Notes under the pieces: generated by a model
Seen by the model: only the letters and a program-made list of their open reading frames with translations
Database searches by the model: none
Told to the model about the DNA's origin: nothing
In this document: positions 16,694-31,442 of the stretch, piece by piece
Layout of the letters: every line of letters begins with the position of its first letter
Numbering within the stretch: position 1 is the stretch's first letter
NCBI GenBank assembly: GCA_944389925.1
Contig: CALXOD010000051.1
Span: forward strand, 124,001-188,000
Reading direction: 5' to 3'
DNA length: 64,000 nucleotides
Source: an uncultured Victivallaceae bacterium
Lineage (GTDB): Bacteria; Verrucomicrobiota; Lentisphaeria; Victivallales; Victivallaceae
Program-made: the position numbers and the translations under genes

Positions 16694-18490
16694 TTACATT
16701 GCGTCCGGCACGCCGATGGTAAGTGTGGCCAATCCGTCCGTCAAAACAATGCGCACCGATTCGCACAGTGCCAGCCGGGCGGAAACCAGTTCCGGCTCCG
16801 CCGCCGCCAAAACCGGGCACTCCCGATAGAAGCGGTTGAACGCCTTGGCCAGATCCAGCAGATACTCCACCAGCGACGAACAATCCCGCCGTCCGGCGGC
16901 CAGCTGCAACGCTGCCGGATAGAAGGCGGCAGCCAGCGCCAACGCCTTTTCCGCCGGATGCGTCAGCAAATCCCACTGTACCCGATCCGGCGCAAAATCG
17001 ATGCCGCGTTCCGCCGCTTTGCGCGCAATGGAACGGATCCGGGCACAGGCATACTGCACGTAAGGCCCGGTATCGCCCTCGAACCGGATACTGGCGGCGG
17101 GATCGAACGTCATGGTAGTTTTGGCATTGAATTTGAGCAGCATGAATTTCAATGCCCCCATCCCGATGATCTCGCCTCTCGCCGCCAGCTCTGCTTCAGG
17201 AACCGACTCGTCAGCGCGTTCCCGGCAACCGGCAATCGCCAGATTGACCATTTCATCGAAGAGATCGTCGGCATCGACGACCGTTCCTTCCCGACTTTTC
17301 ATCTTCCCGGAAGGCAGATTGACCATGCCGTAAGAGAGGTGAAACAGGTTATCCGCCCATTCGTACCCGAGCTTGCGCATGATCGAAAACAACATCTGAA
17401 AATGCAGGTTCTGTTCATCCCCCACCACCCAGATCATCGCTTCCGGCTGGTAGTCCCGGTATTTCAACAGTGTAGTCCCGATATCCTGCGTCATATAAAC
17501 GCTGGTACCGTCGGAGCGCAGTACCACCTTATCCCCCAATTTGCCGAGCGGCGCCATAACGGCACCATCCGCGCGGCGAACAAACACCCCCTGCTCCAGT
17601 CCGGCGGCGATCACATCCTTGCCGAGCTGGTAAGTCTGGCTTTCCAGATAAGTGTGGTTGAAATGGATCCCCATGCGCCGGTAAGTCGCGTCAAATCCGG
17701 CAAACACCCAGTCATTCATCCGTCGCCAGAGCGCCCGCACTTCCGGATCACCGGCTTCCCAGTCCTGCAACATCTTCTGGGTCGCCCGACCGAGTTCAGT
17801 TTCCAGAAAGAGCGATTCCGCGTCCCGATCCGCCCATTCCGGATGAGCGGTCTTCAGCGCGGCAACCTCTTCGGACAGCGCCCGGTTATATTCCACATAA
17901 AAATCTCCGACCAGATGATCCCCCTTTATGCCGGTGGATTCCGGCGTCTCGCCATGGCCGAAACGCTGATAGGCAATCATGGATTTGCAGATATGAATGC
18001 CCCGGTCATTGACCAGATTGATCTCAATCACCTCATGCCCGACGCGCTTGAGCAGAGCTGCAAGCGACATTCCGAGCGTATTGTTGCGCACATGGCCCAG
18101 GTGCTGCGGCTTGTTGGTATTGGGTGCGGAATATTCGATCAAAATCCGACGCCGTTCCTCCGGAGCCACTTTCCCAGCCTCCAGCAAAGCGTCCGGAGCG
18201 GCGACGGAATCGCGATACAGCGCGGCAGGCTTCAGTGTCACGTTGACAAATGCCTTCACCACATCGACTGCTTCCACATCCGCATGTTCCGACAGGTAAT
18301 CCGCGACCTGTCGTGCCACCCGGTCCGGAGCTGCGCCGCAGAACCGGGCAAAACGAAAACAATTTACCGTCAAATCTCCGGCCATTCCCTCCGGACACCG
18401 TTCCGGATCCACCCGCGTTTCCCCCGGAAAACGCTCAAATGTTTTTTTCAAAAACTCATTCAGATCGGCCATGCACTGAAACTGCAACAT
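16694..18490 (-). CDS. argS: Arginyl-tRNA synthetase
   Basis: 598 residues, a class I synthetase charging tRNA-Arg. The HIGH-type motif is HLGHVRNNTLG in the context IEYSAPNTNKPQHLGH. The KMSKS-equivalent is KMKSREGTVVDADDL, the form common in Bacteroidetes/PVC enzymes. The N-terminal ~90 residues are the Add-1 tRNA-binding domain and the C-terminal ~140 the anticodon-binding DALR region. Two starts are possible: 18490 (AAGGA upstream, long spacing) and MADLNEFL at 18472 (no Shine-Dalgarno). It lies 21 bases downstream of manA and could share its transcript. Confidence 0.96.
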   Translation of the reverse strand: MLQFQCMADLNEFLKKTFERFPGETRVDPERCPEGMAGDLTVNCFRFARFCGAAPDRVARQVADYLSEHADVEAVDVVKAFVNVTLKPAALYRDSVAAPDALLEAGKVAPEERRRILIEYSAPNTNKPQHLGHVRNNTLGMSLAALLKRVGHEVIEINLVNDRGIHICKSMIAYQRFGHGETPESTGIKGDHLVGDFYVEYNRALSEEVAALKTAHPEWADRDAESLFLETELGRATQKMLQDWEAGDPEVRALWRRMNDWVFAGFDATYRRMGIHFNHTYLESQTYQLGKDVIAAGLEQGVFVRRADGAVMAPLGKLGDKVVLRSDGTSVYMTQDIGTTLLKYRDYQPEAMIWVVGDEQNLHFQMLFSIMRKLGYEWADNLFHLSYGMVNLPSGKMKSREGTVVDADDLFDEMVNLAIAGCRERADESVPEAELAARGEIIGMGALKFMLLKFNAKTTMTFDPAASIRFEGDTGPYVQYACARIRSIARKAAERGIDFAPDRVQWDLLTHPAEKALALAAAFYPAALQLAAGRRDCSSLVEYLLDLAKAFNRFYRECPVLAAAEPELVSARLALCESVRIVLTDGLATLTIGVPDAM

Positions 18491-18511
18491 AAAATACGAA
18501 ATTCCTTATTT

Positions 18512-19537
18512 CTACAAGGTTGTCTTGACCACCGCCGTCTCGCCGGCCGCCAGCGGACGCACCGAATACGCGCCATAGGCGAAAGGAATCAGCGCGGTTT
18601 CCCCGGCCTGTAATTCCAAAGCCTGTTCTTCCGCCAACGCTCCTTTGCCAATCCGTACCGGCTTATTGACCGCGCTGAGCAAATGAAAACTGCCGGTGGC
18701 GCTGGTGTCGTCATGCCAGACCGTCACCAGCCGCAAATCGTCCACCTTAAAATAACGGCAACGGTCGACAATTGAAAATTTCCGATTGTGCGCCACCTCG
18801 TCCGACACTCCGGCAATCCGGGGCGAACTCCGATTCATGAAATCAATCGCCATCAGTCCCTTTTCCACATGCAATTCCCGGGACCGCCCCGCGGCATCCA
18901 CCCGTCCCCAGTCACTGATCCGGTAGGTAGTATCGCTGTTCTGCTGAATTTCCAGAATCAAATTTCCTCCACCGATCGCGTGCAAGGTACCTGATGGAAT
19001 AAAATATGCGTCCCCCGGCTGAGAAGGATACACCTGCAGCAATTGCTCCACCTCAGGGGAACTCAACTGGTCCTTGAGCTGCAATCGGGTAGCGCGCGGA
19101 CTCAAACCTGCCAGAATATTCGCACCGCGGCAAGCGGCGATAATATACCACATTTCCGTTTTCGACTCAGCCCCTCCGCCAATCCGCTGCGCCACCTGCT
19201 CGTCTGGATGCACCTGCAACGACAGTCGATCTCCGGCATCAATCAGTTTCACCAGCAACGGGAATCTTCCATCTGAACGGGCTTTTCGCCCCAGCAGCGC
19301 GGTACCATAACGAGTCATCAATTCCCGCAGCGACACCCCTTCCAGTGCCCCGCAAGCCACCACGCTGACGGCCTCATCTCGATCGGAAAGTTCCCAGGAT
19401 TCCCCTATCGGCAGAGCTCCTGCGGGCACATCCCGTCCCAAAACCTCCGGCATCAACGTCCCCCCCCAGATTCGTTCTTTATAAATCGGGCGGAATTTCA
19501 ATGGCGACAACATGCTCGCCTCCGGCCATTCAGACAT
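18512..19537 (-). CDS. manA: Mannose-6-phosphate isomerase, class I (Bacillus type)
   Basis: 341 residues; interconverts mannose-6-P and fructose-6-P with a zinc ion. Zinc and active-site motifs: LSLQVHPDE, SKTEMWYII and GTLHAIGGGNLILEIQQNSD, then TYRISDWGR, typical of the short Bacillus-type enzyme. The start at 19537 is supported by an excellent Shine-Dalgarno (AGGAGGT five bases upstream) and overlaps the end of the ybgC-like gene by 8 bases. It is part of the cmk-ybgC-manA-(argS) run downstream of the ribosomal operon. Confidence 0.94.
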   Translation of the reverse strand: MSEWPEASMLSPLKFRPIYKERIWGGTLMPEVLGRDVPAGALPIGESWELSDRDEAVSVVACGALEGVSLRELMTRYGTALLGRKARSDGRFPLLVKLIDAGDRLSLQVHPDEQVAQRIGGGAESKTEMWYIIAACRGANILAGLSPRATRLQLKDQLSSPEVEQLLQVYPSQPGDAYFIPSGTLHAIGGGNLILEIQQNSDTTYRISDWGRVDAAGRSRELHVEKGLMAIDFMNRSSPRIAGVSDEVAHNRKFSIVDRCRYFKVDDLRLVTVWHDDTSATGSFHLLSAVNKPVRIGKGALAEEQALELQAGETALIPFAYGAYSVRPLAAGETAVVKTTL

Positions 19538-19940
19538 GGTCTACCTCCTGAAATTTCCGGCACTGCTCCACCAGAAGCGAGGGAAGCCGTACCACTTTAT
19601 GATCTGCATTCACGCAGGCCAGCACCACATGCCCGCTCACCAGCAGCCGGTCGTCCCGCCAGACTTCGCTGACAATCGTCAACCGCACCCCGCGCATCTC
19701 CTGCACAAAAGAACGAAACGTCAAAAGATCGTCATAACGCGCCGAATCATGATATTTGCAGCAAGCCTCAGAAACCGGCAGAAATATCCCCATCTTCTCC
19801 AGTTCGCTGTACGGCAAGCCCGCCGCCCGCAACATCTCCGTCCGGCTGCGTTCAAAATATTCAAGATAATTGGCGTAGTAAACCACCCCCATCTGGTCGG
19901 TATCGGCGTAGGGAACCCGATAGGTCATCTCATGCTTCAT
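19530..19940 (-). CDS. ybgC: Acyl-CoA thioesterase of the YbgC/4-hydroxybenzoyl-CoA family
   Basis: 136 residues from MKHEMTYRV at 19940, preceded by AGGA at six bases; longer in-frame starts lie inside cmk. The hot-dog fold signature is clear: VPYADTDQMGVVYYANYLEYFERSRTEML, with the catalytic Asp in the Asp-Thr-Asp-Gln-Met-Gly segment. In proteobacteria YbgC is tied to the Tol-Pal/phospholipid system, but no tol genes are nearby. Overlaps the end of cmk by 11 bases and the start of manA by 8, so it is coupled on both sides. Confidence 0.88.
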   Translation of the reverse strand: MKHEMTYRVPYADTDQMGVVYYANYLEYFERSRTEMLRAAGLPYSELEKMGIFLPVSEACCKYHDSARYDDLLTFRSFVQEMRGVRLTIVSEVWRDDRLLVSGHVVLACVNADHKVVRLPSLLVEQCRKFQEVDHV

Positions 19941-20610
19941 GCTCCATCCTTCCGACGATAAAATCAACCACTTCTTCAATCGACATTCCGGTGGTGTCCA
20001 CCATGATCGCGTCCGGCGCAGGTTTCAGCGGCGCAATCTCCCGGGTGGAATCAATCCGGTCCCGTTCAGCAATCGCCCGAGCCACCTCTTCCAGCGTGGC
20101 TCCGGAAAAATTCTCTCCCTCCTGGGCAAGACGCCGACGCGCCCGCTCCAGCGGAGATGCCGTTACAAAAAACTTATAGCGGGCCTGCGGAAAAATCACC
20201 GTTCCGATGTCCCGCCCCTCCATTACCAGCCAGCCGTGCCCGGCCAGCTCCCGCTGTCTTTTCTTTAGAAATTCACGCACCGGCCCGATCGTCGCCACCG
20301 GACTCACCAGTGCCGCCACTTCCGGTGAACGCAATGCCTCACCGGGAAACATGCCGTTCAAGCACAACTCAAAATTGCCTTCCGCGTTGCGTTCATAATC
20401 CAGCTGGAGATGTTCCAGCACCGGCGCCAGTTTTTCCGCGGTACAATCCGACACCTCCGTGATTCCGGCTCGACGCGCGGCCAGAGTCACCGCGCGAAAC
20501 ATGTTTCCGGTATTAACGTAAGCGATGCCAAGCCGATGGGCCAATCGTGCAGCGACCGTGCTTTTACCCGACGCGGCAGGACCGTCAATGGCAATTACAG
20601 AATCCGACAT
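19930..20610 (-). CDS. cmk: Cytidylate kinase
   Basis: 226 residues from MSDSVIAIDGPAASGKST at 20610, with AGAGGAAAG upstream; an upstream in-frame start would read through the hairpin repeat and is unlikely. P-loop GPAASGKST is at residues ~9-17. CMP-binding and lid motifs follow: YVNTGNMFRA, EGRDIGTVIFPQARYKFFVTAS, RARRR and ERDRIDSTREIAPLKPAPDA. Phosphorylates CMP/dCMP. It stands immediately downstream of secY, where adk is more usual. Confidence 0.95.
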   Translation of the reverse strand: MSDSVIAIDGPAASGKSTVAARLAHRLGIAYVNTGNMFRAVTLAARRAGITEVSDCTAEKLAPVLEHLQLDYERNAEGNFELCLNGMFPGEALRSPEVAALVSPVATIGPVREFLKKRQRELAGHGWLVMEGRDIGTVIFPQARYKFFVTASPLERARRRLAQEGENFSGATLEEVARAIAERDRIDSTREIAPLKPAPDAIMVDTTGMSIEEVVDFIVGRMEHEA

Positions 20611-20634
20611 TCGTCTTTCCTCTCCCAGAACAAA

Positions 20635-20669
20635 ACGCAAAGACGCAAAGGCACTTTGCGTCTTTGCGT
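20635..20669. repeat. REP-like hairpin CGCAAAGACGCAAAG between secY and cmk
   Basis: A perfect 16-bp stem (left arm 20635-20650 containing CGCAAAGACGCAAAG, right arm 20654-20669) has a 3-base loop. Each arm holds a tandem CGCAAAG unit. On the minus strand TTTGTTCT follows, so it may attenuate transcription from secY into cmk. Hairpins of this CGCAAAGACGCAAAG family are widespread as dispersed repeats in several phyla; only one copy is in this window. Confidence 0.7.
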
Positions 20670-20705
20670 CTTTCCCCTGCTCGGCCATGCCGCCGGGGTA
20701 ATTAA

Positions 20706-22061
20706 TCAGTTGCCACTGCGCCCGCGTAAACGGCCGCTCTTCAGGAACCCTTCATAATGCCGCATCGTCAGATGCGACTCGAGCTGCCGCATGGTATCCA
20801 ATACCACACCGACCATGATCAGCAGACTGGTACCACCGAAAAACTGCGCCACCATAAAAGGAATCTTGAAATTGCTGTAGAGAAACATCGGGAAAAGCGC
20901 CAGCGCCACCAGAAAAATCGCACCGCCGAACGTCACCCTGGTCATGGTCGTATCCAGATAATCCGCCGTCGCCTGTCCGGGACTGATGCCGGGAATAAAA
21001 GCACCTTCCTTTTTCAGGTTGTCGGCAATCTGAATCGGATTGAACTGGTTCGCCACCCAGAAGTAGCTGAAAGCCATGATCAGAATCCCGTAAGTAATAC
21101 TGTAACCGGCTCCGTCCGGACGGAACCACAATGCAACCCGGTGCCATTGCAAATACTGGAACAGATATTCCGGCAACATCAAAATTGCACCGGCAAAAAT
21201 GATCGGCATAACGTTCGCAAAATTCACCTTGAGCGGCATGTAGGTGCTGCCTCCCGTCAACTGGCTGCCAACGGTCTTACGCACCATCTGAATCGGTACC
21301 CGACGATACCCCTGCGACAGCAGAATTGTGGCCGCCGTGACCCCTGCAAACACCAGCAGCAACAACAGCAACTGCACCGGTTTGAAGGAGTTTCCATCCG
21401 GCGTAGCCCCCTTCATCGCCATCTGCACCAGTTCAATCACGGAATGCGGCAACCGCGAAACGATGTTGATCGTGATAATGATCGACACCCCGTTGCCGAT
21501 CCCGCGCTCCGTCACCTGTTCGCCAAGCCACATGAACACCATCGTCGTACAGGTGATCACCACCACCGTCGTGAAAACAAACGCTGTCTGAGAACCGGTA
21601 AACAACGGCATCCCCGGATCCCGCAGTCCCAGCCGGGCAGGATTGACCATCGCCATGGCCACCATGATACCCTGCACCAGACAGACCACAATCGTCAGAT
21701 AACGGGTATACTGAGAGATTTTCTGACGCCCTGCCTCCCCTTCTCTGCTGATTTTTTCCAGAGAAGGAATCACCGGCACCAGCAACTGCATAATGATCGA
21801 TGCGGTAATGTACGGCATGATCCCCAGCGCGCCGAGCGCAAAATGCGCCAGAGCCCCGCCGGAAAAGAGGTCGATCATCGCCATGAAACCGCCGTCAGCA
21901 CCGCCGGTCATACTCGCTAAATAAGCTTCCAGCGCCGCCGGGTCAACCCCGGGACACGGAATGTTGCTCGCCACGCGCACCAAAACAATGATCAACGCGG
22001 TGAACAGCAGCCGGTTCCGCAGTTCCTTGACTCTCCATAGATTCCTGAATGCAGCAAACAT
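20706..22061 (-). CDS. secY: Protein translocase subunit SecY
   Basis: 451 residues with ten hydrophobic segments, the channel of the Sec translocon. Family landmarks: the N-terminal FRNLWRVKELRNRLLFTALI; ALGIMPYITASIIMQLL; the second-half YLDTTMTRVTFGGAIFLVAL; and FFGGTSLLIMVGVVLDTMRQ near the C-terminus. The ribosomal-protein operon ends here as usual, but the expected downstream adk/map/infA/rpmJ/rpsM block is missing and cmk follows instead. Confidence 0.97.
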   Translation of the reverse strand: MFAAFRNLWRVKELRNRLLFTALIIVLVRVASNIPCPGVDPAALEAYLASMTGGADGGFMAMIDLFSGGALAHFALGALGIMPYITASIIMQLLVPVIPSLEKISREGEAGRQKISQYTRYLTIVVCLVQGIMVAMAMVNPARLGLRDPGMPLFTGSQTAFVFTTVVVITCTTMVFMWLGEQVTERGIGNGVSIIITINIVSRLPHSVIELVQMAMKGATPDGNSFKPVQLLLLLLVFAGVTAATILLSQGYRRVPIQMVRKTVGSQLTGGSTYMPLKVNFANVMPIIFAGAILMLPEYLFQYLQWHRVALWFRPDGAGYSITYGILIMAFSYFWVANQFNPIQIADNLKKEGAFIPGISPGQATADYLDTTMTRVTFGGAIFLVALALFPMFLYSNFKIPFMVAQFFGGTSLLIMVGVVLDTMRQLESHLTMRHYEGFLKSGRLRGRSGN

Positions 22062-22135
22062 CTTTCTTTCTACCCGTCTCTCTCGATTACGGAAGCGCCG
22101 CCGGAAAAATTTTTCCGGCGGCCGCTCCCACGCTG

Positions 22136-22582
22136 TTACTCGATGACTTCGGCTTTTCCTCCGGCGGCCTCAATCTTGGCTGCCGCCGCGGCGGAAAATT
22201 TCCGGGCCTTCACGGTCAGCGCCTTGGTGAGTTCGCCATTGGCCAGAACCTTCAGCTCGCGTTCACTCTTGCCGAGCAGATTCTTCGCACGGAGCGCTTC
22301 CATATCAACCACCTCGCCGGCTTCAAAATTTTCTTCCAGCACGGAAAGGTTGATCAAATGGTATTCAATATGATCCGGACTGTTGAATCCGCGCTTCGGC
22401 AGCCGCCGGAACAACGGAATCTGACCACCTTCGAAGAACGGACGGATCTTCGAGCCGGAACGGGACTTCTGTCCCTTTTCCCCGCGGCAGCAGGTTTTTC
22501 CCATGCCGGAGCTGTCGCCACGGCCGACCCGCTTACGCCGCTGCCGGGAACCCGGATTCGGACTGAGTTCGTGCAATTTCAT
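22136..22582 (-). CDS. rplO: 50S ribosomal protein L15
   Basis: 148 residues beginning MKLHELSPNPGSRQRRKRVG, then the Gly-rich GDSSGMGKTCCRGEKGQKSR stretch and FEGGQIPLFRRLPKRGF, all diagnostic of L15. Shine-Dalgarno GAGGT precedes the start. It follows rpsE directly, with only 39 bases between; rpmD (L30), normally in this gap, is absent. Confidence 0.97.
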   Translation of the reverse strand: MKLHELSPNPGSRQRRKRVGRGDSSGMGKTCCRGEKGQKSRSGSKIRPFFEGGQIPLFRRLPKRGFNSPDHIEYHLINLSVLEENFEAGEVVDMEALRAKNLLGKSERELKVLANGELTKALTVKARKFSAAAAAKIEAAGGKAEVIE

Positions 22583-22621
22583 GATATTACCTCAATTTTT
22601 TCCGCATTCCTGCGAAAATCC

Positions 22622-23137
22622 TTATTTCGCTTCCGCAGCGGTCATTCCACGCCGTTCCAGAACACTGTCCCGGTCCCGCAGCATGGAAATCGCCTTGAAC
22701 GTCGCCTTCGCCACGTTGGTCGCATTGCTCGCACCAAGTGACTTGGCCAGCACGTCCTGCACACCGGCCAGTTCCAGAATGGCCCGCACCGCACCACCGG
22801 CGATCAAACCGGTCCCGGCACTAGCCGGTTTCAGCAGCACCCGCGCTCCACCGAACTTGACTTCGACTTCATGCGGCAACGTCATACCGTGCATCGGAAC
22901 GGCCACCAGATTACGACGGGCGCTTTCTCCACCCTTGCGGATGGCATCAGATACTTCATTCGCCTTCCCGTAGCCATAACCGACCCGGCCCTTGCGATCG
23001 CCCACCACCACCAGAGCGCCGAAACTGAAGTTTTTGCCGCCTTTGACGACCTTGGCACTCCGGTTGATGCTGATGACGCTCTCGCCAAGCTCGTTGTCGA
23101 AAGCTTCATCATTCTTCATATTTTCACGCTTCGCCAT
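22622..23137 (-). CDS. rpsE: 30S ribosomal protein S5
   Basis: 171 residues. The double-stranded RNA-binding N-domain has [20 protein letters not shown] and [19 protein letters not shown]. The C-domain has the [19 protein letters not shown] and [20 protein letters not shown] motifs. AGGAG precedes the start. Standard position in the spc-type cluster, downstream of rplR. Confidence 0.97.
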
Positions 23138-23150
23138 ATGCCATACGCTC

Positions 23151-23513
23151 CTAGAATTTCAGTCCCTGCTCTCTGGCGGCTTCGGCAATTGCCTTCACGC
23201 GACCATGATAGCGATATCCAGAACGGTCGTAGACCACCGCGGAAATACCGACGGCTTTGGCATTTTCCGCCGCCAGTTTGCCCAGCAATGCAGCGCCGGC
23301 CATATTCGGTTTGCCGTTCGCTTCCTTGAACTTGGGATCCAGGCTGGAGGTCGAAGCCAGCGTCACGCCTTTTTCATCGTCAATGAACTGACAATAAATA
23401 TTGTTGGCAGTGATGCTCACGCAGAACCTCGGGCAAGCCGCCGTGCCGGAAACTTTCTTGCGAATGCGCAGATGACGGCGCATACGTTGTTCTTTATTGC
23501 TTTTAACAGCCAT
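23151..23513 (-). CDS. rplR: 50S ribosomal protein L18
   Basis: 120 residues. [20 protein letters not shown] at the N-terminus, then [20 protein letters not shown] and the C-terminal [20 protein letters not shown] with GLKF ending are typical of L18, which binds 5S rRNA. Tandem with rplF upstream and rpsE downstream. Confidence 0.96.
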
Positions 23514-23534
23514 GATTCATAACTCCCCCGCGGA

Positions 23535-24068
23535 CTATCCGACGGATTTCCCTTCCTTGAGGGTGATCTGTTCATCCACATACCGGATCCCCTTACCCTT
23601 GTAGGGTTCGGGCTTCCGGAAACGGCGAATGGTGGCGGCCGCCTGGCCGACCAGCTGCTTGTCCGCGCCTTCCACCGTAATCTTGACGTTGTCGGCCACC
23701 GTAACCTTCACACCTTCCGGCACCACATATTCAATCGGGTGGGAATAGCCCAGGTTCAGAACCAGCTTGCTGCCGCTCATCTGAGCACGGTACCCCACGC
23801 CGACAATCTGCAGCTCTTTTTTGAAACCGGCACTGACGCCGATGACCATATTGTTGATCAAGCTGCGTGCCAGGCCCTGCATCGCACTCGAAGCACGCTC
23901 TTCATCCTGGCGGCTGACAATGACCTCCGACCCCTCGACGGCTACCGAAACCAGCGGCGGCAGCGGCAGCGACAGCTTGCCCTTGCCCTCCACCGTCACC
24001 GTGCCGTCCGCAACCGTTACCTTGACGCCGGCGGGAATCGCAATCGGTTTTTTTCCAATACGAGACAT
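23535..24068 (-). CDS. rplF: 50S ribosomal protein L6
   Basis: 177 residues. MSRIGKKPIAIPAGVKVTVA at the N-terminus and the C-terminal signature RRFRKPEPYKGKGIRYVDEQ identify L6. Length is normal for bacteria. Order rpsH-rplF-rplR matches the canonical spc operon. Confidence 0.97.
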   Translation of the reverse strand: MSRIGKKPIAIPAGVKVTVADGTVTVEGKGKLSLPLPPLVSVAVEGSEVIVSRQDEERASSAMQGLARSLINNMVIGVSAGFKKELQIVGVGYRAQMSGSKLVLNLGYSHPIEYVVPEGVKVTVADNVKITVEGADKQLVGQAAATIRRFRKPEPYKGKGIRYVDEQITLKEGKSVG

Positions 24069-24086
24069 AATGAGAATATCCTTGAC

Positions 24087-24482
24087 TTACCAGATGTAAC
24101 AGATGATCTCACCGCCGACGTTTTCCTTCGCGGCCTGAGCGCCGCTCATGATGCCGTGCGGAGTGGACAACACCACAGTACCGAGCCCGTTGCGCACCCG
24201 CGGAATTTCGCGACTGCCACAATGCATACGACGGCTGGGCTTGCTGACGCGTTCCAGACCTTCGATCACCGGTTTCCCGTTGTAATATTTGAGGTCTACC
24301 ACGAGCGTCTTCTTCGGCCCGTCTTCCACCACTGAACAATCCTTGATGTAGCCTTCCTGCTTGAACACCGCAGCAATCGCCGCTTTTTCGCGGGAACCGG
24401 GCATAACGACCTGTTTCAGACCGGCCGCTCCGGCATTGCGAATCCGGGTCAGCATATCGGCAATCGGATCCTGCATACTCAT
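24087..24482 (-). CDS. rpsH: 30S ribosomal protein S8
   Basis: 131 residues. N-terminal QDPIADMLTRIRNAGAAGLK and C-terminal RVRNGLGTVVLSTPHGIMSG followed by GGEIICYIW match S8, which binds the central domain of 16S rRNA and autoregulates spc operons in some bacteria. Located between rpsN and rplF. Confidence 0.97.
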   Translation of the reverse strand: MSMQDPIADMLTRIRNAGAAGLKQVVMPGSREKAAIAAVFKQEGYIKDCSVVEDGPKKTLVVDLKYYNGKPVIEGLERVSKPSRRMHCGSREIPRVRNGLGTVVLSTPHGIMSGAQAAKENVGGEIICYIW

Positions 24483-24498
24483 AACAACAATCCCTTCC

Positions 24499-24684
24499 TT
24501 ACCAGCTGGCCTTGGTCACACCCGGAATCTGGCCTTTGGAGGCCAGCTCCCGAAAGCAGATACGGCAAAGTTGAAATTTTCCGATATAAGCGCGGGCGCG
24601 CCCGCAGGCTTTGCAGCGAGTGTAGTTACGAACTTTGAACTTGCTGCCGCGGAGCGCCTTGACAATCAAACTGGTTTTAGCCAT
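24499..24684 (-). CDS. rpsN: 30S ribosomal protein S14, type Z (zinc-binding)
   Basis: 61 residues, the short zinc form. Two Cys pairs, [10 protein letters not shown] and CRICFRELA, form the zinc site, and the protein ends [11 protein letters not shown] as usual. The presence of the C+ form rather than the ~100-residue C- form fits a genome in which zinc is not limiting, or which has a paralogue elsewhere. Standard position between rplE and rpsH. Confidence 0.97.
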
Positions 24685-24706
24685 GTTACTTCGCTTCCTT
24701 CCATCC

Positions 24707-25243
24707 TTATTCCGCGAACGGAACTTCCAGCATTTTCAAGAGCTCGAACGCATCCTCATCCTTCCGGGCCGTCGTCACCATCGTGATATTCAGCCCGAGC
24801 GGATATTTCAGCTTGTCCTGGTCGATTTCGGTGAATACCGCAATATCCGGAATCCCGACATTGTAGTTCCCAGCTCCGTCAAAGCCGGTTTTCGGAATCC
24901 CACGGAAGTCGCGTACACGCGGCATCGCATTGTGCACGAAACGATCCAGAAATTCATACATCCGATCCCCGCGAAGCGTGACCATGACCCCGTTCTGCAT
25001 CCCCACGCGCAGCTTGAAGTTCGACACGTTTTTGCGCGCCTTGGTAATCACCGGAGTCTGCCCGGTGATCGCGGCAATCTGCTTCTTGGCCTCCGTAAAA
25101 GCATCGCGTTCGCATCCGGAGCCCAGCCCGGTGGAAAGCACAATCTTTTCCAGCTTGGGAATCTGCATGACGTTCTTGCAGCCGATCTTGGCCTGGAGCG
25201 CCGGGCGGATTTCTCCCATATATTTTTTCTTCATATCAGGCAT
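24707..25243 (-). CDS. rplE: 50S ribosomal protein L5
   Basis: 178 residues. Landmarks are [20 protein letters not shown], the [20 protein letters not shown] segment, and the C-terminal [20 protein letters not shown]-like ending (here [20 protein letters not shown]). L5 binds 5S rRNA in the central protuberance. Six bases separate it from rplX. Confidence 0.97.
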
Positions 25244-25249
25244 TTTGCA

Positions 25250-25522
25250 TTACTCCGTCTTTTTCCCGCCCTTGGCGTCGACGAGCGCGGCAACGTTCGA
25301 AACATGCACCGACACCGAACGTTCCACCAACCCGCCATTCGGATTGGCCTGGCTCTTCTTGAGCGTCCGCTTACCGATCTGACGATCATCCTTCTTCGTC
25401 AAGAACTCCAGCACAACCCGGTCTTTTTCCGGAAGAATCGCCGTGATCTGCGCGGTTCCCCCCTTCCACTTGCCGGAATTGACAAACACCTTATCGCCTT
25501 TTTTGACATGGTATTTTTTCAT
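25250..25522 (-). CDS. rplX: 50S ribosomal protein L24
   Basis: 90 residues. The KOW motif is at the N-terminus (KYHVKKGDKVFVNSGKWKGG). The RNA-binding C-terminal half has QANPNGGLVERSVSVHVSNV, matching the L24 pattern. Its ATG overlaps the TAA of rplN by one base (TAATG). Confidence 0.95.
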   Translation of the reverse strand: MKKYHVKKGDKVFVNSGKWKGGTAQITAILPEKDRVVLEFLTKKDDRQIGKRTLKKSQANPNGGLVERSVSVHVSNVAALVDAKGGKKTE

Positions 25523-25887
25523 TACAACACCTCCGGCGCCAGCGAAATAATCTTCATAAAATCCTTTTCCCGAAGTTCACGGGCCACGGGTCCGAAAATA
25601 CGGGTCCCGACCGGATTCTTGTCCTTGTCGATGATCACACCAGCGTTGTCGTCAAATCTCAGATAGGAGCCATCAGGACGACGAATCTTCGCAGCCGTGC
25701 GAACAATGACCGCCTTGACTACCTGCCCCTTCTTCACGCTGCCGTCTGGAATCGCTTCCTGCACGGCTGCAGTCACAATATCACCAACTCCGGCAATGGT
25801 TTTCGCCTGCCCCAGGATGGTGATCACCACCATCGACTTGGCACCGGAATTGTCGGCCACCTCGAGTTTCGTCTGCATCTGAATCAT
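25522..25887 (-). CDS. rplN: 50S ribosomal protein L14
   Basis: 121 residues starting [20 protein letters not shown], with [20 protein letters not shown], the [20 protein letters not shown] signature, and a [13 protein letters not shown]-terminus, all typical of L14. Tandem between rpsQ and rplX, with one-base overlap to rplX. Confidence 0.97.
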
Positions 25888-25908
25888 TTTGCATCTCTCC
25901 CCGGGTGT

Positions 25909-26181
25909 TTATTCCGCCGCGCGGCTGATGATTTCAAGAAGCCGCCAGCACTTGTTCTTGCTCAACGGACGGGTTTCGACAATGCGCACGGTATCGCCGA
26001 CCTTCGCCTCGTTGTTTTCGTCATGAGCCGTGAATTTCTTCCGGACCTTGACCACTTTCTTATACAACGGATGCGGAGTACGACGGTCCACTTTGACCAC
26101 AATGGTCTTATTCTGCACGTCGCTGACCACGACTCCGACGCGTTCCTTGCGGATCCCGCGCTTTTCGATAGCTTCACTCAT
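25909..26181 (-). CDS. rpsQ: 30S ribosomal protein S17
   Basis: 90 residues from [20 protein letters not shown] (ATG 26181, with GAGGTG upstream; an earlier in-frame codon overlaps the rpmC stop and is unlikely). [20 protein letters not shown] and [20 protein letters not shown] are S17 signatures. Standard position. Confidence 0.95.
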
Positions 26182-26189
26182 GATACACC

Positions 26190-26387
26190 TCACTCGGCCT
26201 TGGCGGCACGACTGGTTTGTTCGGTCAGCAATCGGGCGATGTCACGCCGAACCTGACGCACGCGGGCGGTTTTTTCCAGCTGGCCGGTACGCGATTGAAT
26301 CTTCAGATTCAGTTTTTCGCGCCGCAGTTCCGTCATCCGGCTGACCAGTTCCGCATCGGTCATTTCACGAATTTCTTTGTTCTTCAT
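26190..26387 (-). CDS. rpmC: 50S ribosomal protein L29
   Basis: 65 residues from [20 protein letters not shown] (ATG 26387); longer in-frame extensions overlap rplP and are not L29-like. The helical hairpin segments [20 protein letters not shown] and [15 protein letters not shown] are characteristic. Located between rplP and rpsQ. Confidence 0.95.
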
Positions 26388-26392
26388 AAAAC

Positions 26393-26806
26393 TCAACCCT
26401 CCCGCGACAGGAACTTGCAACGCAGACACAGCTTGTTGGCCGCACGGCTCATCGCTTCACGGGCCACAGCTTCGCTGCAACCGGAAATTTCAAACAGAAC
26501 CCGTCCCGGCTTCACCGGAGCGTTCCAGCCCTCGACGTTCCCTTTTCCTTTTCCCATACGCACTTCCAACGGCTTCTTGGTGAACGAACGATACGGGAAA
26601 AGACGAATCCAGACTTTCCCACGGCGCTTCAGGTGACGGGTGATCGCCACACGGGCCGCTTCAATCTGATTATTCGAAACGTATCCACGGCTCAGCGACT
26701 GAATCGCGAAATCGCCGAAGTCCAGCTTGTTATTGCTGGTGGCGAGGCCCGCGTTACTTCCGCGCTGAACCTTTCTGTACTTTACTCTTTTTGGCATTAG
26801 CGGCAT
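26393..26806 (-). CDS. rplP: 50S ribosomal protein L16
   Basis: 137 residues beginning [16 protein letters not shown], the near-universal L16 N-terminus, so the start must be at 26806 (or 26797). A GGAGG Shine-Dalgarno lies at 26816-26820. [20 protein letters not shown] and [20 protein letters not shown] confirm the family. The start lies 53 bases inside the end of rpsC, in the +1 frame, an unusually long overlap for this gene pair. Confidence 0.96.
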
Positions 26807-27476
26807 AATTCTGATCCTCCATACCCTCTTTGTGGCAAATCCATACCTTGACGCCGATCTTTCCGGCCGTCGTGTCGGCTTCCGCGAAGCCGTAGTCAAT
26901 GTTGGCCTTCAACGTGTGCAACGGCACCCGGCCTTCCTTATACTGCTCTTCCCGCGCCAGTTCGGCTCCGCCGAGACGGCCCGCGCAATTGACCTTGATC
27001 CCGTCCACACCCATTTCCATGGCGGACTGAATCGCACGCTTCATCGCGCGCCGGAAGCCGATCCGGCGTTCCAGCTGCTGAGCAATATTTTCGGCCACAA
27101 GCTGAGCATTCACTTCGGCACGCCGGATTTCGACGATCTCTGTAAATACTTCCTTATTGCCGACGAGTTTGGAGATCGCCTGCCGCAGCGAATCCAGTTC
27201 TTCCCCTTTTTTGCCGATCAGAAGACCGGGACGGGCGGAAAAAATAGTTACGCGAATACGACTGGCATACCGTTCAATCTGAATCCGGGAAATCGCAGCG
27301 GCAGCAGCCGCCAGCTCATTCTTCCCCTTGATGACGTACTGTTCCTTGATGAACTTCCGGATCTTGAGGTCCTCATGGAGCCATTCGCCGAACAACGCCT
27401 TGCCGGCGAACCAGCGGGATTCCCAATTCTTGGTAAGCGCCGTTCTCAATCCGATCGGATTTACTTTCTGTCCCAC
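26754..27476 (-). CDS. rpsC: 30S ribosomal protein S3
   Basis: 240 residues starting [20 protein letters not shown]. The KH domain has [20 protein letters not shown]; the C-domain has [20 protein letters not shown] and [20 protein letters not shown]. The C-terminal tail after the conserved core (~residue 225 on) is basic ([14 protein letters not shown]), and its DNA also encodes the first ~17 codons of rplP. Confidence 0.97.
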
Positions 27477-27487
27477 GATGCTGCCCC

Positions 27488-27823
27488 TTATTTATTGTCC
27501 GTCAAAATCACTTCCAGATGGCTGGTCCGCTTCCGGATCCGGCCGGCGGAACCGCGGGCCTTGGCCCGAAAACGCTTGATGATCGGACCGGGGCTGACCA
27601 GCGCCGCTTTGACGCTCAGCTCATTGCGGTTCAAATCAAAGTTGTTTTCGGCATTGGCCACAGCGGAACGCAGGGTATCGCCCAGCAGTCGCCCCGCCTT
27701 GCGCGGAGTCAGCTCGACAATGGCCAGCGCTTCGCTGGCGGACTTGCCCTGAAGAAGACGCGAAATATGGCGCGCCTTTTCCGGCGAAATCCGCACATTC
27801 TTAGTCAAAGCTCTAACTTCCAT
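27488..27823 (-). CDS. rplV: 50S ribosomal protein L22
   Basis: 111 residues. [20 protein letters not shown], the [20 protein letters not shown] region and the C-terminal hook [20 protein letters not shown] identify L22, whose loop lines the peptide exit tunnel. It is the first ribosomal gene of this cluster. Canonical upstream rpsS and rplB are absent, and an exported coiled-coil gene precedes it by 24 bases. Confidence 0.96.
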
Positions 27824-27847
27824 AATCTGGTTCTCTCTTACTTTGCT

Positions 27848-28687
27848 TTACTTGCTTTGCGTCACGGCCTCCATACCAGGAGCAATGGCATCAATGTTGC
27901 CGGACACCAGCTGCGCCGCCGCGACAAATGGCCGCACACTGACCACTCTGAGCGCTGCTTCGTCCTTCCCGACGTAGTACATCAGTCCATTGAACGCACC
28001 ATGGACCGTGCCTACCGGCAACACGACCACCGACAGCTCGCGATCCACGGCGAGAATCCGGCATTTCTCCAGACTCTGCTCATCTTTTTCCGCAGCCGTC
28101 AGTGCGATGAACCGGCGGGACTCACTTTTCAGCTCGTCAGCGCGCAATCGGATTTCCGCCTGTTTCACCTTCCCGAGAGGCTGGTCACCCGTCTGCGCTT
28201 CCACCAGTTCGCAGAATTCCACGGTCTTGAGGGCAAGCGCTCGCCCGCTTTCAGCAGTATCGTTCATCGCTCGAAGCAACTGTTCTTCCCGTTCCCCGGC
28301 GCTACGCACTTGACCGCTTGCCAATGCACCGGACAGAACCAGTCGGAGCTGTCGATACTGCTCATTCTGCTTTTGATACTTATTCGTTATTTCAATCAGC
28401 TCCCGCTGACTTCGCTGCCCGGCTTCGCGTAAGGATCGATTTTCCTGCTCGAGCCTGGCCAGAGACTTTGCCGCCTCGGCCGCTTCGCGCCGCAGGGCAT
28501 CGAGTTCTTGCTGCCGTTGCGCATCCTCCGGCCGCACCCGCACCCGCACGCCGCTGAAGCCTCCATCATCGGGAAACTCACTACTCGCGACGGCAGACAC
28601 ACCGCCGCATATAATTAGATTATATAAAATAACCGCTCCCGCAACCTTTTGCCAACGGGAAACCGGATTTTTTCGATATTTTTTCAC
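27848..28687 (-). CDS. Exported coiled-coil protein of unknown function heading the ribosomal operon
   Basis: 279 residues from GTG 28687, chosen because GGGAGG lies about eight bases upstream and a signal-like segment follows (VAGAVILYNLIICGGVSAVA). Coiled coil occupies ~50-115 (QRQQELDALRREAAEAAKSL, RLEQENRSLREAGQRSQREL). The C-terminal ~75 residues look like a small beta-rich domain (ILAVDRELSVVVLPVGTVHG, LRVVSVRPFVAAAQLVSGNI). I do not recognise a family. The promoter at 28745-28772 would transcribe it with rplV onward, making a periplasmic or membrane-anchored protein the lead gene of a ribosomal operon. Confidence 0.65.
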   Translation of the reverse strand: MKKYRKNPVSRWQKVAGAVILYNLIICGGVSAVASSEFPDDGGFSGVRVRVRPEDAQRQQELDALRREAAEAAKSLARLEQENRSLREAGQRSQRELIEITNKYQKQNEQYRQLRLVLSGALASGQVRSAGEREEQLLRAMNDTAESGRALALKTVEFCELVEAQTGDQPLGKVKQAEIRLRADELKSESRRFIALTAAEKDEQSLEKCRILAVDRELSVVVLPVGTVHGAFNGLMYYVGKDEAALRVVSVRPFVAAAQLVSGNIDAIAPGMEAVTQSK

Positions 28688-28744
28688 TCGGCACGCCTCC
28701 CGGCAGCATTCACCACCATTTTCTGCTTGAAATACATGTCCGGT

Positions 28745-28772
28745 AATATAATCCCGACACTCTTTTTTACAA
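28745..28772 (-). promoter_or_regulatory. Sigma-70-type promoter of the coiled-coil/ribosomal operon
   Basis: On the minus strand, TTGTAA (28772-28767), a 16-base spacer and TATATT (28750-28745) lie 58 bases upstream of the GTG at 28687. It is the only good promoter I see ahead of the rplV-secY run. Confidence 0.55.
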
Positions 28773-28977
28773 ATTTTCAGCGATCCGCCAGAAATTTGCG
28801 GTTCTTTTTGCAACTCCAGTTGCCCGCCGGACAACTTCGATGGATTTTCCAATGGAATTCCCATGCGTTTCCTTGCATTTCCATTCGGATGGTTTTACAT
28901 TGATATTGATCGCACCTTCTGCAGAGAAAGTCCGGAAGGAAGGAGCGGCACCACAGTTTTTTTCCCGAATTACAGTC

Positions 28978-29739
28978 ATGAAGTTTTTGATTTACAATAT
29001 TGCTTACGGAACCGGTAATCCGGGCGGAGAATACCGGCGACTGTTGACCAGCCATCATTATCTGGCCGCCCCCAAGCGTCCTTTCCGGAAAATTGTCCGT
29101 TTCATCGCCGCCCAGTGCCCTGACATTGTGGGGTTGGTGGAGGCGGATTTCGGCAGTACCCGTACCGGTGGCATCAATCAAGTCGAAACACTGGCGGGCG
29201 AACTGGGACACTTCCGTTTCTATCGGCCGAAATACGCGCCGGATTCACCTCTGGTCCGCCTGCCTTATTTAAAATATCAGGGGAATGCGTTTCTCACCGG
29301 GCAAGCAGAGAGTTCCTGTACGTTTGACTTTTTCCCATGCGGCTGGAAAAAACTGATTCTTTCCATCCGCTCCGGAGGAATCCGCTTTATTCTGGTACAT
29401 CTGGCTTTGACCCGACAGGTCCGACGAACGCAACTGGAGTATCTGGCAGAGCGGTTGAAGCCGGGTGAGCCGACCGTGGTGGCGGGAGATTTCAATACAT
29501 TTGCCGGAGCAAGAGAGCTGGCACGGTTCATGGAACGATGTTCGCTCACCAGCGCCGATCCCGACGGCCGTGCCACCTATCCATCCTGGAAACCGGGCAG
29601 GCAGCTGGATTACATTCTCTGCTCTCCGGAAGTGGAGGTCCGGGATTTTGACGTTCCACGGGTGCGTTTTTCCGATCATCTGCCGTTGGTAGCTCATCTG
29701 GCGGTTGCCCGGCCACAGCAGCAGGAGGTTTCCGCATGA
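28978..29739 (+). CDS. Endonuclease/exonuclease/phosphatase-family protein
   Basis: 253 residues from MKFLIYNIAYGTGN (ATG 28978); the frame is open upstream, but the family N-terminus begins here. Motifs of the EEP fold: FLIYNIAYG (metal-site Asn), CPDIVGLVEAD, VVAGDFNTF and the terminal RFSDHLPLVAHLAV, giving the catalytic Asp-Asn and Asp-His pairs. Members cleave phosphodiesters in DNA, lipids or inositol phosphates; the substrate is not predictable. The stop overlaps the start of a membrane protein gene (ATGA), so the two probably act together at the membrane. Confidence 0.85.
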   Translation: MKFLIYNIAYGTGNPGGEYRRLLTSHHYLAAPKRPFRKIVRFIAAQCPDIVGLVEADFGSTRTGGINQVETLAGELGHFRFYRPKYAPDSPLVRLPYLKYQGNAFLTGQAESSCTFDFFPCGWKKLILSIRSGGIRFILVHLALTRQVRRTQLEYLAERLKPGEPTVVAGDFNTFAGARELARFMERCSLTSADPDGRATYPSWKPGRQLDYILCSPEVEVRDFDVPRVRFSDHLPLVAHLAVARPQQQEVSA

Positions 29740-31442
29740 ATCTTTCGTTCGTTCGTAAAAATTTTCTACCGCTGCTGATCGCCGCACAACTCTTATCGGC
29801 GTTGCTCGGGGTCGTCGGCTTCTGGGGATTTCCCGGCTGGCCGGGAACCCATGAATACACGTCAACTGCCGTCCGGGTATTTCAATTCGCCGATGCCTGG
29901 CGCGCCGGAGACTGGCTGCCGATCTGGAGTACGGCGGAAAATTACGGACTGGGATCCCCCATGCCGTTGTACTATCCTCGGTTGTTCACGACCATCACCA
30001 TGATCTTCTTCCTGTGCGGAGTCGGAATCAAAACCGCATTGGTGCTCACGTCCATGCTTTTCGGAATGATCGGAGGAACCGGCTTGTACGGCTGCTGCCG
30101 CATTCTGCGATTGCCCCGGTGCTGGGCCGCAGGGTTAAGCCTGCTCTTCATACACCTCAACTATGCGCAAACCGACCTCATGGTGCGCGGCGCGATGGCG
30201 GAATTTACGGCAATGGCGCTGCTGCCCTTGCTTGCGGCCTGGAGTCTGCTGGTGATGTTGCGCGGAGACTTCCGCTGGTGGGGAGTGCTGGTCGGACTGG
30301 GGTTGTTTTTCGGACATCCGACGATTCTGGCCACGGCTCTGCCACTGCCGGCGACGGCATTGGTCATCGCCTACATCCGCCATCCGGCCCGGCGCAGCGA
30401 ATTGTTGAAACGAACCATACTGGGCGGACTGGCCGGTGCAGCAGTGGTCGGACCATGGGTGCTGCTGTGGCAGACACAGAAAGAAAATTTTATTTTCGAA
30501 ATCGGCTACCTGCTGATGAACAATCCCCGGTATTTTTTTGTTTCAGTCCGGGAATTTCTGTTGAATTTCCTTTTCTATGAGCGCCACGGCAACTCCATCA
30601 ACCCGCAGCTGGATCTCGGTTTTCTGCTGGGCTTCCTCGTCCTGGCCGGAATTGCCGGCTGTGCTCTGTACCGTTCTGCGGCACTGCGGCAGCGCTGGCG
30701 GCGGCACTGGCCGGAACTGCTGGTCATCGGCGGCTGCGTGATTCTGTATTTCCTCTTCATGAACCGCATCACCTGGCCGATTTACCGGCGCAGTTACTTT
30801 TTAATCACCATGCAGTTTCCCTGGCGGCTGCTGGCTCCGGCCTCGGTGCTGGGCGTGGTGCTGTACGCCCTCTTCCTGCGATTGCTGCGCGGGGTGCTGT
30901 CCGACCGGAAGCTGGCGCTGCTGGTATGGCTGCCGCTGCTGCTGACGCTGGGGGGCAGTCTCCTGCATCAGTACCGTCTGGAATCACGGCTGACATGGCA
31001 GGAATTCACCCGGCAAAATCCAGTCAACTGGATTGAATATGTGCCCATGGTACCGAAATTCAAGGATGACTGCGATCCCAATGAATGGCGTATTCTAATC
31101 GACCAATGGCTGCAATACCATGCGCAGCGGCCGCCGGAGTTTTTCGGCACCCCGGCAAAAATCGAAATCGTACCGCTGGCCGATCGGAGAAGCTGGCAAA
31201 TCACGTCCATATCCGATCAACCATTTATTGTGGAACTGCCGATCATCTGGAGCGATCTGCTCCTGATCACGCCGCAGGACGGTTCCGGCCGCCTTCCCGG
31301 CTGGCGCAGCCTGGAAAATCCGCGGCTGCGTTTCGCCGTTCCCGCAGGCTCCCAGCAAATTCGTGTCGACGTTCCCTCCTGGCGCACCGTCTGGCGTCGC
31401 AATCACCTGCCGCTGCTGCCCTCCGCCCTGCCGCCGCAGTGA
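29736..31442 (+). CDS. Polytopic membrane protein (YfhO/GT-C-like)
   Basis: 568 residues with roughly ten hydrophobic segments in the first ~430 residues, then a ~135-residue soluble C-terminal domain (from about VPMVPKFKDDCDPNEW). After the first helix, residues ~35-80 form a loop (THEYTSTAVRVFQFADAWRA, LGSPMPLYYPRLFTTI) typical of YfhO-like and '6-pyruvoyl-tetrahydropterin synthase-related' membrane proteins, related to GT-C glycosyltransferases. It may transfer sugars from a lipid carrier, but no catalytic residue is certain. Coupled by ATGA overlap to the phosphatase-family gene. Confidence 0.68.
   Translation: MNLSFVRKNFLPLLIAAQLLSALLGVVGFWGFPGWPGTHEYTSTAVRVFQFADAWRAGDWLPIWSTAENYGLGSPMPLYYPRLFTTITMIFFLCGVGIKTALVLTSMLFGMIGGTGLYGCCRILRLPRCWAAGLSLLFIHLNYAQTDLMVRGAMAEFTAMALLPLLAAWSLLVMLRGDFRWWGVLVGLGLFFGHPTILATALPLPATALVIAYIRHPARRSELLKRTILGGLAGAAVVGPWVLLWQTQKENFIFEIGYLLMNNPRYFFVSVREFLLNFLFYERHGNSINPQLDLGFLLGFLVLAGIAGCALYRSAALRQRWRRHWPELLVIGGCVILYFLFMNRITWPIYRRSYFLITMQFPWRLLAPASVLGVVLYALFLRLLRGVLSDRKLALLVWLPLLLTLGGSLLHQYRLESRLTWQEFTRQNPVNWIEYVPMVPKFKDDCDPNEWRILIDQWLQYHAQRPPEFFGTPAKIEIVPLADRRSWQITSISDQPFIVELPIIWSDLLLITPQDGSGRLPGWRSLENPRLRFAVPAGSQQIRVDVPSWRTVWRRNHLPLLPSALPPQ

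Follow-up and report, generated by a model that had tools for sequence, protein, structure and literature searches.

A putative promoter within the signal-peptide codons of a coiled-coil gene that adjoins rplV across most of a class of Verrucomicrobiota

Bacterial S10-spc ribosomal-protein operons follow the order rplV-rpsC-rplP-rpmC-rpsQ and onwards to secY. Promoters of the rRNA type that are read by sigma-70 and carry UP elements combine phased A-tracts with a -35-like TGGACA, a 17 bp spacer and TATNNT, and intragenic sense promoters within operons allow downstream genes to be transcribed apart from the first one. In the SecM-secA secretion monitor, an exported protein is encoded upstream of a Sec gene. 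Here we describe a locus from an uncultured Victivallaceae bacterium, contained in a stretch of 64,000 nucleotides (hereafter, the window), in which the run of genes keeps the S10-spc order from rplV-rpsC-rplP-rpmC-rpsQ to secY but is broken off between rpsS and rplV, its first gene encoding a signal-peptide protein with a coiled coil (hereafter, CC); elsewhere in the phylum, a CC-family gene is found inside the operon. Like SecM, CC bears a signal and is encoded upstream of a Sec gene, secY; unlike SecM, it has no conserved C-terminal arrest motif, and secY stands at the far end of the run. A putative promoter inside CC, denoted P2, shares with rRNA-type promoters the A-tracts, a TGGACA-like -35, the 17 bp spacer and TATNNT, but is set in the frame of a signal peptide, about 800 nt from the first ribosomal-protein gene in the window. 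As an internal site, P2 would transcribe rplV-secY apart from CC, as other intragenic operon promoters do for their downstream genes, but it lies at the extreme 5' end of its gene and is conserved along with the reading frame throughout the class. We rate CC and P2 as a variant of two known kinds, the guest gene in a ribosomal-protein operon and the intragenic promoter.

CC occupies positions 28687-27848 of the minus strand and encodes 279 amino acids, with a signal peptide, a coiled coil and a conserved C-terminal part. The open reading frame reaches further upstream, to an ATG at 28864, but the start was set at the GTG at 28687, because comparison showed that this codon is ATG in the two nearest relatives. 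The N-terminus has a Lys-rich stretch followed by a hydrophobic core, a pattern seen class-wide; a helix predicted for residues 53-166 comes from a model whose overall confidence is low, and most of the invariant residues in alignments of the family fall in the C-terminal part. The gene for L22, rplV (27823-27488, minus; Pfam PF00237, E 1.9e-31), starts 24 nt beyond the end of the CC open reading frame (27848-28864, minus), so that the coordinates agree with an earlier note on this DNA, which had described a coiled-coil gene with a signal peptide at that distance ahead of rplV. The remaining ribosomal-protein genes, rpsC to rplO (22136-27476, minus), and secY (20706-22061, minus; Pfam PF00344, E 4.6e-100), with which the run as treated here ends, lie downstream on the CC strand. 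Eight genes of the run were positive in the Pfam check, namely rplV, rpsC (S3), rplP (L16), rplN (L14), rplE (L5), rpsH (S8), rplO (L15) and secY; the others were named by eye. Upstream of CC, from 28978, a gene of the endonuclease/exonuclease/phosphatase family (Pfam) points away from it. In the same genome, rpsS sits on a different contig, in the run rpsL-rpsG-fusA-rpsJ-rplC-rplD-rplW-rplB-rpsS (all names except that of S19 assigned by eye). No terminator-like site was found between 26500 and 29500, against 3.7 expected from shuffling.

Searches of Pfam, NCBIfam and PDB sequences yielded no family name for CC, returning weak, mostly coiled-coil matches, of which the Pfam ones were below the cut-off wherever a cut-off was shown. 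The C-terminal part showed a weak likeness to FlgT_C (PF16538) in 2 of the 10 proteins scanned; with E values of 0.03 and 0.06, under the Pfam cut-off, and with no such hit among the matches of the window protein, this family was rejected. A SecM-like arrest was likewise set aside, the C-terminal residues varying in length and sequence in alignments, with no conserved arrest motif. The plasmid search gave no CC match, Rfam returned nothing for positions 18000-30500 of the window or for six loci of the class, and structure prediction from three CC sequences was poor (mean pLDDT 47).

A CC homologue is present in 58 of the 61 genomes of the relatives set, the source genome included. Searches of the 143 genomes in the class set recovered CC in 128 and rplV in 136; in 103 of the 123 with both genes, CC adjoins rplV, adjacency being defined as CC upstream on the same strand with no more than 500 nt between match ends. 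The conservation of the pair that the earlier note had proposed as a check is thus present well beyond close relatives, and the pairing is therefore not a local accident. The 20 exceptions comprise 17 genomes of genus g16, where CC has moved, one of genus g44 with a weak match, one in which the two genes lie on two contigs (G151) and one with CC 3.3 kb away (G103), so that adjacency holds in 103 of the 105 genomes outside g16 and g44. The upstream neighbour of CC differs between genomes, being topoisomerase-like (by eye) in some and divergent in others. At one locus of the class (L021 in G047, a genome with 6% contamination), rpsS lies directly upstream of rplV and is accompanied by a partial second rplV; this rplV perhaps sits on a foreign contig.

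To place the pair in the history of the operon, we turned to a phylum set of 144 genomes, 95 of them outside the class, with counts tallied by hand. Outside the class, rpsS and rplV were both found in 93 genomes and linked in 89, and 42 of these 89 carry a CC-family match between the two. Among 20 such loci that were read, picked so as to include exceptions, 17 carry a CC-family match and 13 show plainly the order rplB-rpsS-CC-rplV, with certain gaps of only a few bases. Most simply, these gene orders suggest that the position of CC beside rplV predates the class. The S10 operon of the class appears to be cut just upstream of CC, which would already have been the neighbour of rplV before the cut, because other lineages of the phylum show rpsS-CC-rplV. 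The earlier suggestion that the locus marks an operon breakpoint thus holds for the cut itself, but not for the meeting of CC and rplV, which were already side by side; the idea that CC is recent debris of the break was set aside. At one locus outside the class (L147 in G235), CC stands ahead of rplV with rpsS far off, which may reflect another, independent cut ahead of CC, in this case without P2. At three others (L151, L152 and L156), CC is short, consisting of the signal and the C-terminal part with hardly any coiled coil or none, yet it keeps its place between rpsS and rplV.

The earlier note had taken a site upstream of CC as the only good promoter ahead of the pair. This putative promoter, P1, was recovered in our promoter scan as TTGTAA-16-TATATT (28772-28745, minus); it matches 9 of 12 consensus bases, its -10 ends 58 nt ahead of the CC start, and it scores 13.2 against a shuffled mean of 6.9, with 4 sites of its quality in the scanned region against 1.3 expected. 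The P1 -10 is retained in the two nearest relatives (L137 and L138). Across the class, the regions upstream of CC exceed the mean of their own shuffles for promoter-like sites in 53 of 78 loci (Wilcoxon p 2e-6), an excess that weakly backs P1-like sites in general. P1 is a plausible promoter, but it is not the conserved one. The scan returned a second site with 9 of 12 matches at 28655-28626, read there as TTGGCA-18-TATTTT, and this is the site that is conserved class-wide, as TGGCAA-17-TATTTT (28654-28626). P1 is thus neither the only good site nor, on the main point, the conserved promoter of the pair, which lies inside CC, downstream of the start codon.

In the window, P2 consists of TGGCAA (28654-28649, minus) and TATTTT (28631-28626, minus), sigma-70-type hexamers whose 17 bp spacing falls within the 16-18 bp range, and both are inside the signal-peptide codons of CC. 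UP-like A-tracts upstream of it (28655-28684, minus) are also inside CC codons. The class consensus comprises phased A-tracts at -30 to -24, -19 to -13 and -9 to -6 from the first -35 base, TGG(A/C)(A/C)A, commonly read as TGGACA or TGGAAA, 17 bp, TATNNT and then GCTCTGTTT-like letters; the phasing of the A-tracts is seen in columns outside the search pattern, as a property of the class consensus rather than locus by locus.

A pattern search that ignored reading frame retrieved 59 sites from the 88 distinct CC loci; the P2 matrix was built from these sites, and the N-terminal region of every locus was rescored with the tested locus left out and close relatives still in training. The search pattern fixes 8 matrix columns and allows two or three letters in two more, so that those columns, and part of one codon tally, are circular. 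A score of at least 15 was reached in the N-terminal region of 79 of the 88 loci, in 78 of these 79 in the frame of CC; the scoring loci span all 21 families sampled (the weakest, 15.1 and 16.1, in f5 and f13, family labels having been mapped by hand) and, being related by descent, are not independent events. In 81 of the 82 loci in which CC has not moved, the best N-terminal site is the top site of the entire locus, four of these sites being weak; P2 scores below 15 in the non-moved loci L022, L026, L011 and L108. Other sites in the loci have a 95th percentile of 12.0, and one reaches 15. The window P2 scores 45.8 with its own genus excluded from training, and the runner-up across the 64 kb scores 1.6. 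Elsewhere in the source genome, a P2-type site with a score of 18.1 lies about 109 nt ahead of rpsL (L085, about 13479, minus), in line with a growth-linked promoter; a stricter P2-like pattern gave 6 overlapping matches at 4 places in this genome, neither P2 nor the rpsL site being one of them. On the rplV strand of the 20 non-class loci that were read, P2 scores were negative throughout, at -3.7 at most, which fits a gain of P2 together with the operon cut. A structured leader downstream of P2 was unsupported (z -0.94).

Over P2, the CC frame reads KKxxFFxxxxW(T/K/Q)xxxxxxILxAL. Among the 78 loci with an in-frame P2, stops across the site occur in the CC frame in one and in the other two frames in 67 and 61, 76 have a positive net charge near the A-tracts, and the CC frame holds across 39 distinct lengths from the -35 to the stop. 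At one locus (L093 in G064), P2 is present but no start codon in frame precedes its start point, and the CC there may lack a signal. For codon usage, sites were picked by amino acids only, namely a W and an L nine residues on, which occur in 50 of the 82 non-moved loci; the other 32 lack these residues. At these sites, ACA encodes all 22 Thr residues that follow W (its share is 22% over the remainder of the genes), AAA all 15 Lys (52%), CAA all 5 Gln (35%) and TTA 40 of the 50 Leu in the -10 (7%). Within the genus of the source genome, third codon positions over P2 were not clearly slower (2 of 28 versus 30 of 251, p 0.75). An open frame kept across P2 and synonymous constraint, the two marks of dual coding, are both seen in the class-wide counts, the constraint not showing within that genus alone.

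Lineages in which CC has been lost or moved show P2 and the gene apart. In genus g44, 9 of 10 genomes gave no CC match, and 4 of the 5 loci read carry P2, scoring 64.6-69.8, about 267 nt ahead of rplV; the fifth, L112, has no P2. Those four (L113, L114, L115 and L116) share an in-frame TGA at the same place in a relic of the CC signal peptide, with P2 intact, and the common TGA suggests a single event. In genus g16, weaker sites, scoring 15.1-36.0, precede rplV in 5 of 5 loci, and the moved CC is without P2 in 4 of 5 (L054, L056, L058 and L118); the remaining copy, L117, gives an out-of-frame, low-complexity hit of 28.8. P2 is likewise missing from the CC found at 3.3 kb from rplV (L121). The relocated CC of L058 sits 3 nt after an RND-transporter-like gene (by eye).

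From gene order, motif, frame, codon bias and the behaviour of the locus where CC is missing or moved, all read from the genomes, we consider it likely that CC is a guest gene, that the operon was cut ahead of it and that P2 drives rplV-secY from the signal-peptide codons, so that one stretch would be promoter and signal peptide in one. CC would be an old guest of the S10 operon in the phylum, between rpsS and rplV, and in the class the cut would have been made just upstream of it. P2, a strong sigma-70-type site with an A-tract UP-like element, would be active in the cell as the main promoter of rplV-secY; its A-tracts would encode the Lys/Phe n-region of the signal peptide, and its -10 and start region the hydrophobic core of a presumably exported protein. 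Because P2 transcripts would begin past the CC start codon, CC would have to be made from transcripts starting upstream, from P1 or by read-through, the P1 transcript carrying CC and the operon and the P2 mRNA carrying rplV-secY behind a leader of about 800 nt. As a regulatory consequence, P2 transcripts, lacking the CC start, would raise ribosomal-protein and SecY output and leave CC unchanged. A leader of about 800 nt is odd and counts against this model. A further, more doubtful proposal is that the promoter turned into the signal peptide: once the S10 operon had split, ribosomes reading through the new promoter would have supplied a signal in place of the original one of CC, and the overlap would then have been fixed as a lasting class-wide dual code. 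Upstream polymerases and ribosomes would have to cross P2, so that the outputs of CC and of rplV-secY would compete, and export demand and ribosome synthesis would be opposed through promoter occlusion.

The evidence for P2 as a promoter in coding sequence has to be weighed against two readings in which one of the two codes is illusory. Were the N-terminal motif just a conserved signal peptide, its likeness to a promoter a by-product, one would expect what is indeed seen in all 78 in-frame scoring loci, a hydrophobic 12-mer in the CC frame. That reading would leave unexplained why synonymous codon choice tracks the promoter sequence also where sites were picked on amino acids only, why P2 persists before rplV where the frame is broken and why it is missing from 5 of the 6 moved CC copies (L054, L056, L058, L118 and L121), and we consider it highly improbable. 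Scarcely better placed is the converse, in which P2 is an ordinary promoter, CC starts downstream as a cytoplasmic protein and the upstream frame is open by chance. An SD-like motif precedes the upstream start codon in just 24 of 78 loci, in 14 of 78 the 50 codons past P2 include an ATG or GTG in frame that has an SD-like motif, and L093 lacks the upstream start; however, a start codon in frame lies ahead of the P2 start point in 77 of 78, the 50 codons past P2 are free of any in-frame ATG or GTG in 19 of 78, and the frame is kept over the 39 lengths, with stops frequent in the other two frames, which makes this reading very unlikely.

Two further alternatives concern the promoter and the linkage. 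The coupling of envelope and ribosome through a single transcript of CC and rplV-secY from P1 as main promoter, as the earlier note had envisaged, draws on the existence of the site, the retention of its -10 within the genus, the promoter-like excess upstream of CC in 53 of 78 loci and the lack of a terminator-like site between 26500 and 29500; class-wide conservation and the A-tracts nevertheless belong to P2, and we regard P1 in that role as unlikely. It is possible, if doubtful, that the pair is a passive leftover of the operon break and that the linkage itself is unselected. Lineages with CC relocated or not found (g16, g44, g46 of family f10 and G103) thus tolerate unlinking, but outside g16 and g44 the linkage is kept in nearly all genomes (103 of 105) even though the gene upstream of CC changes. 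The linkage could be held merely because P2 lies in CC.

A literature search over titles and the beginnings of abstracts, with partial coverage, returned nothing on the CC-rplV/P2 arrangement, and S19 and L22 are absent from the main text of PMC2474590 and PMC3444138.

The pairing of CC and rplV is real and ancient, and the two are entangled via a shared stretch of DNA. If the proposed role of P2 is true, a strong housekeeping promoter that overlaps a translated signal peptide in all 21 sampled families would be a clear natural case of DNA carrying two codes. A motif that looks conserved at the protein level would really be one at the DNA level, a trap for annotation and for comparisons of signal peptides. 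The natural losses and relocations of CC provide ready-made controls, and the presence of a signal-bearing protein within the ribosomal-protein operon in many lineages of the phylum offers a simple handle on whether ribosome synthesis sets envelope proteins.
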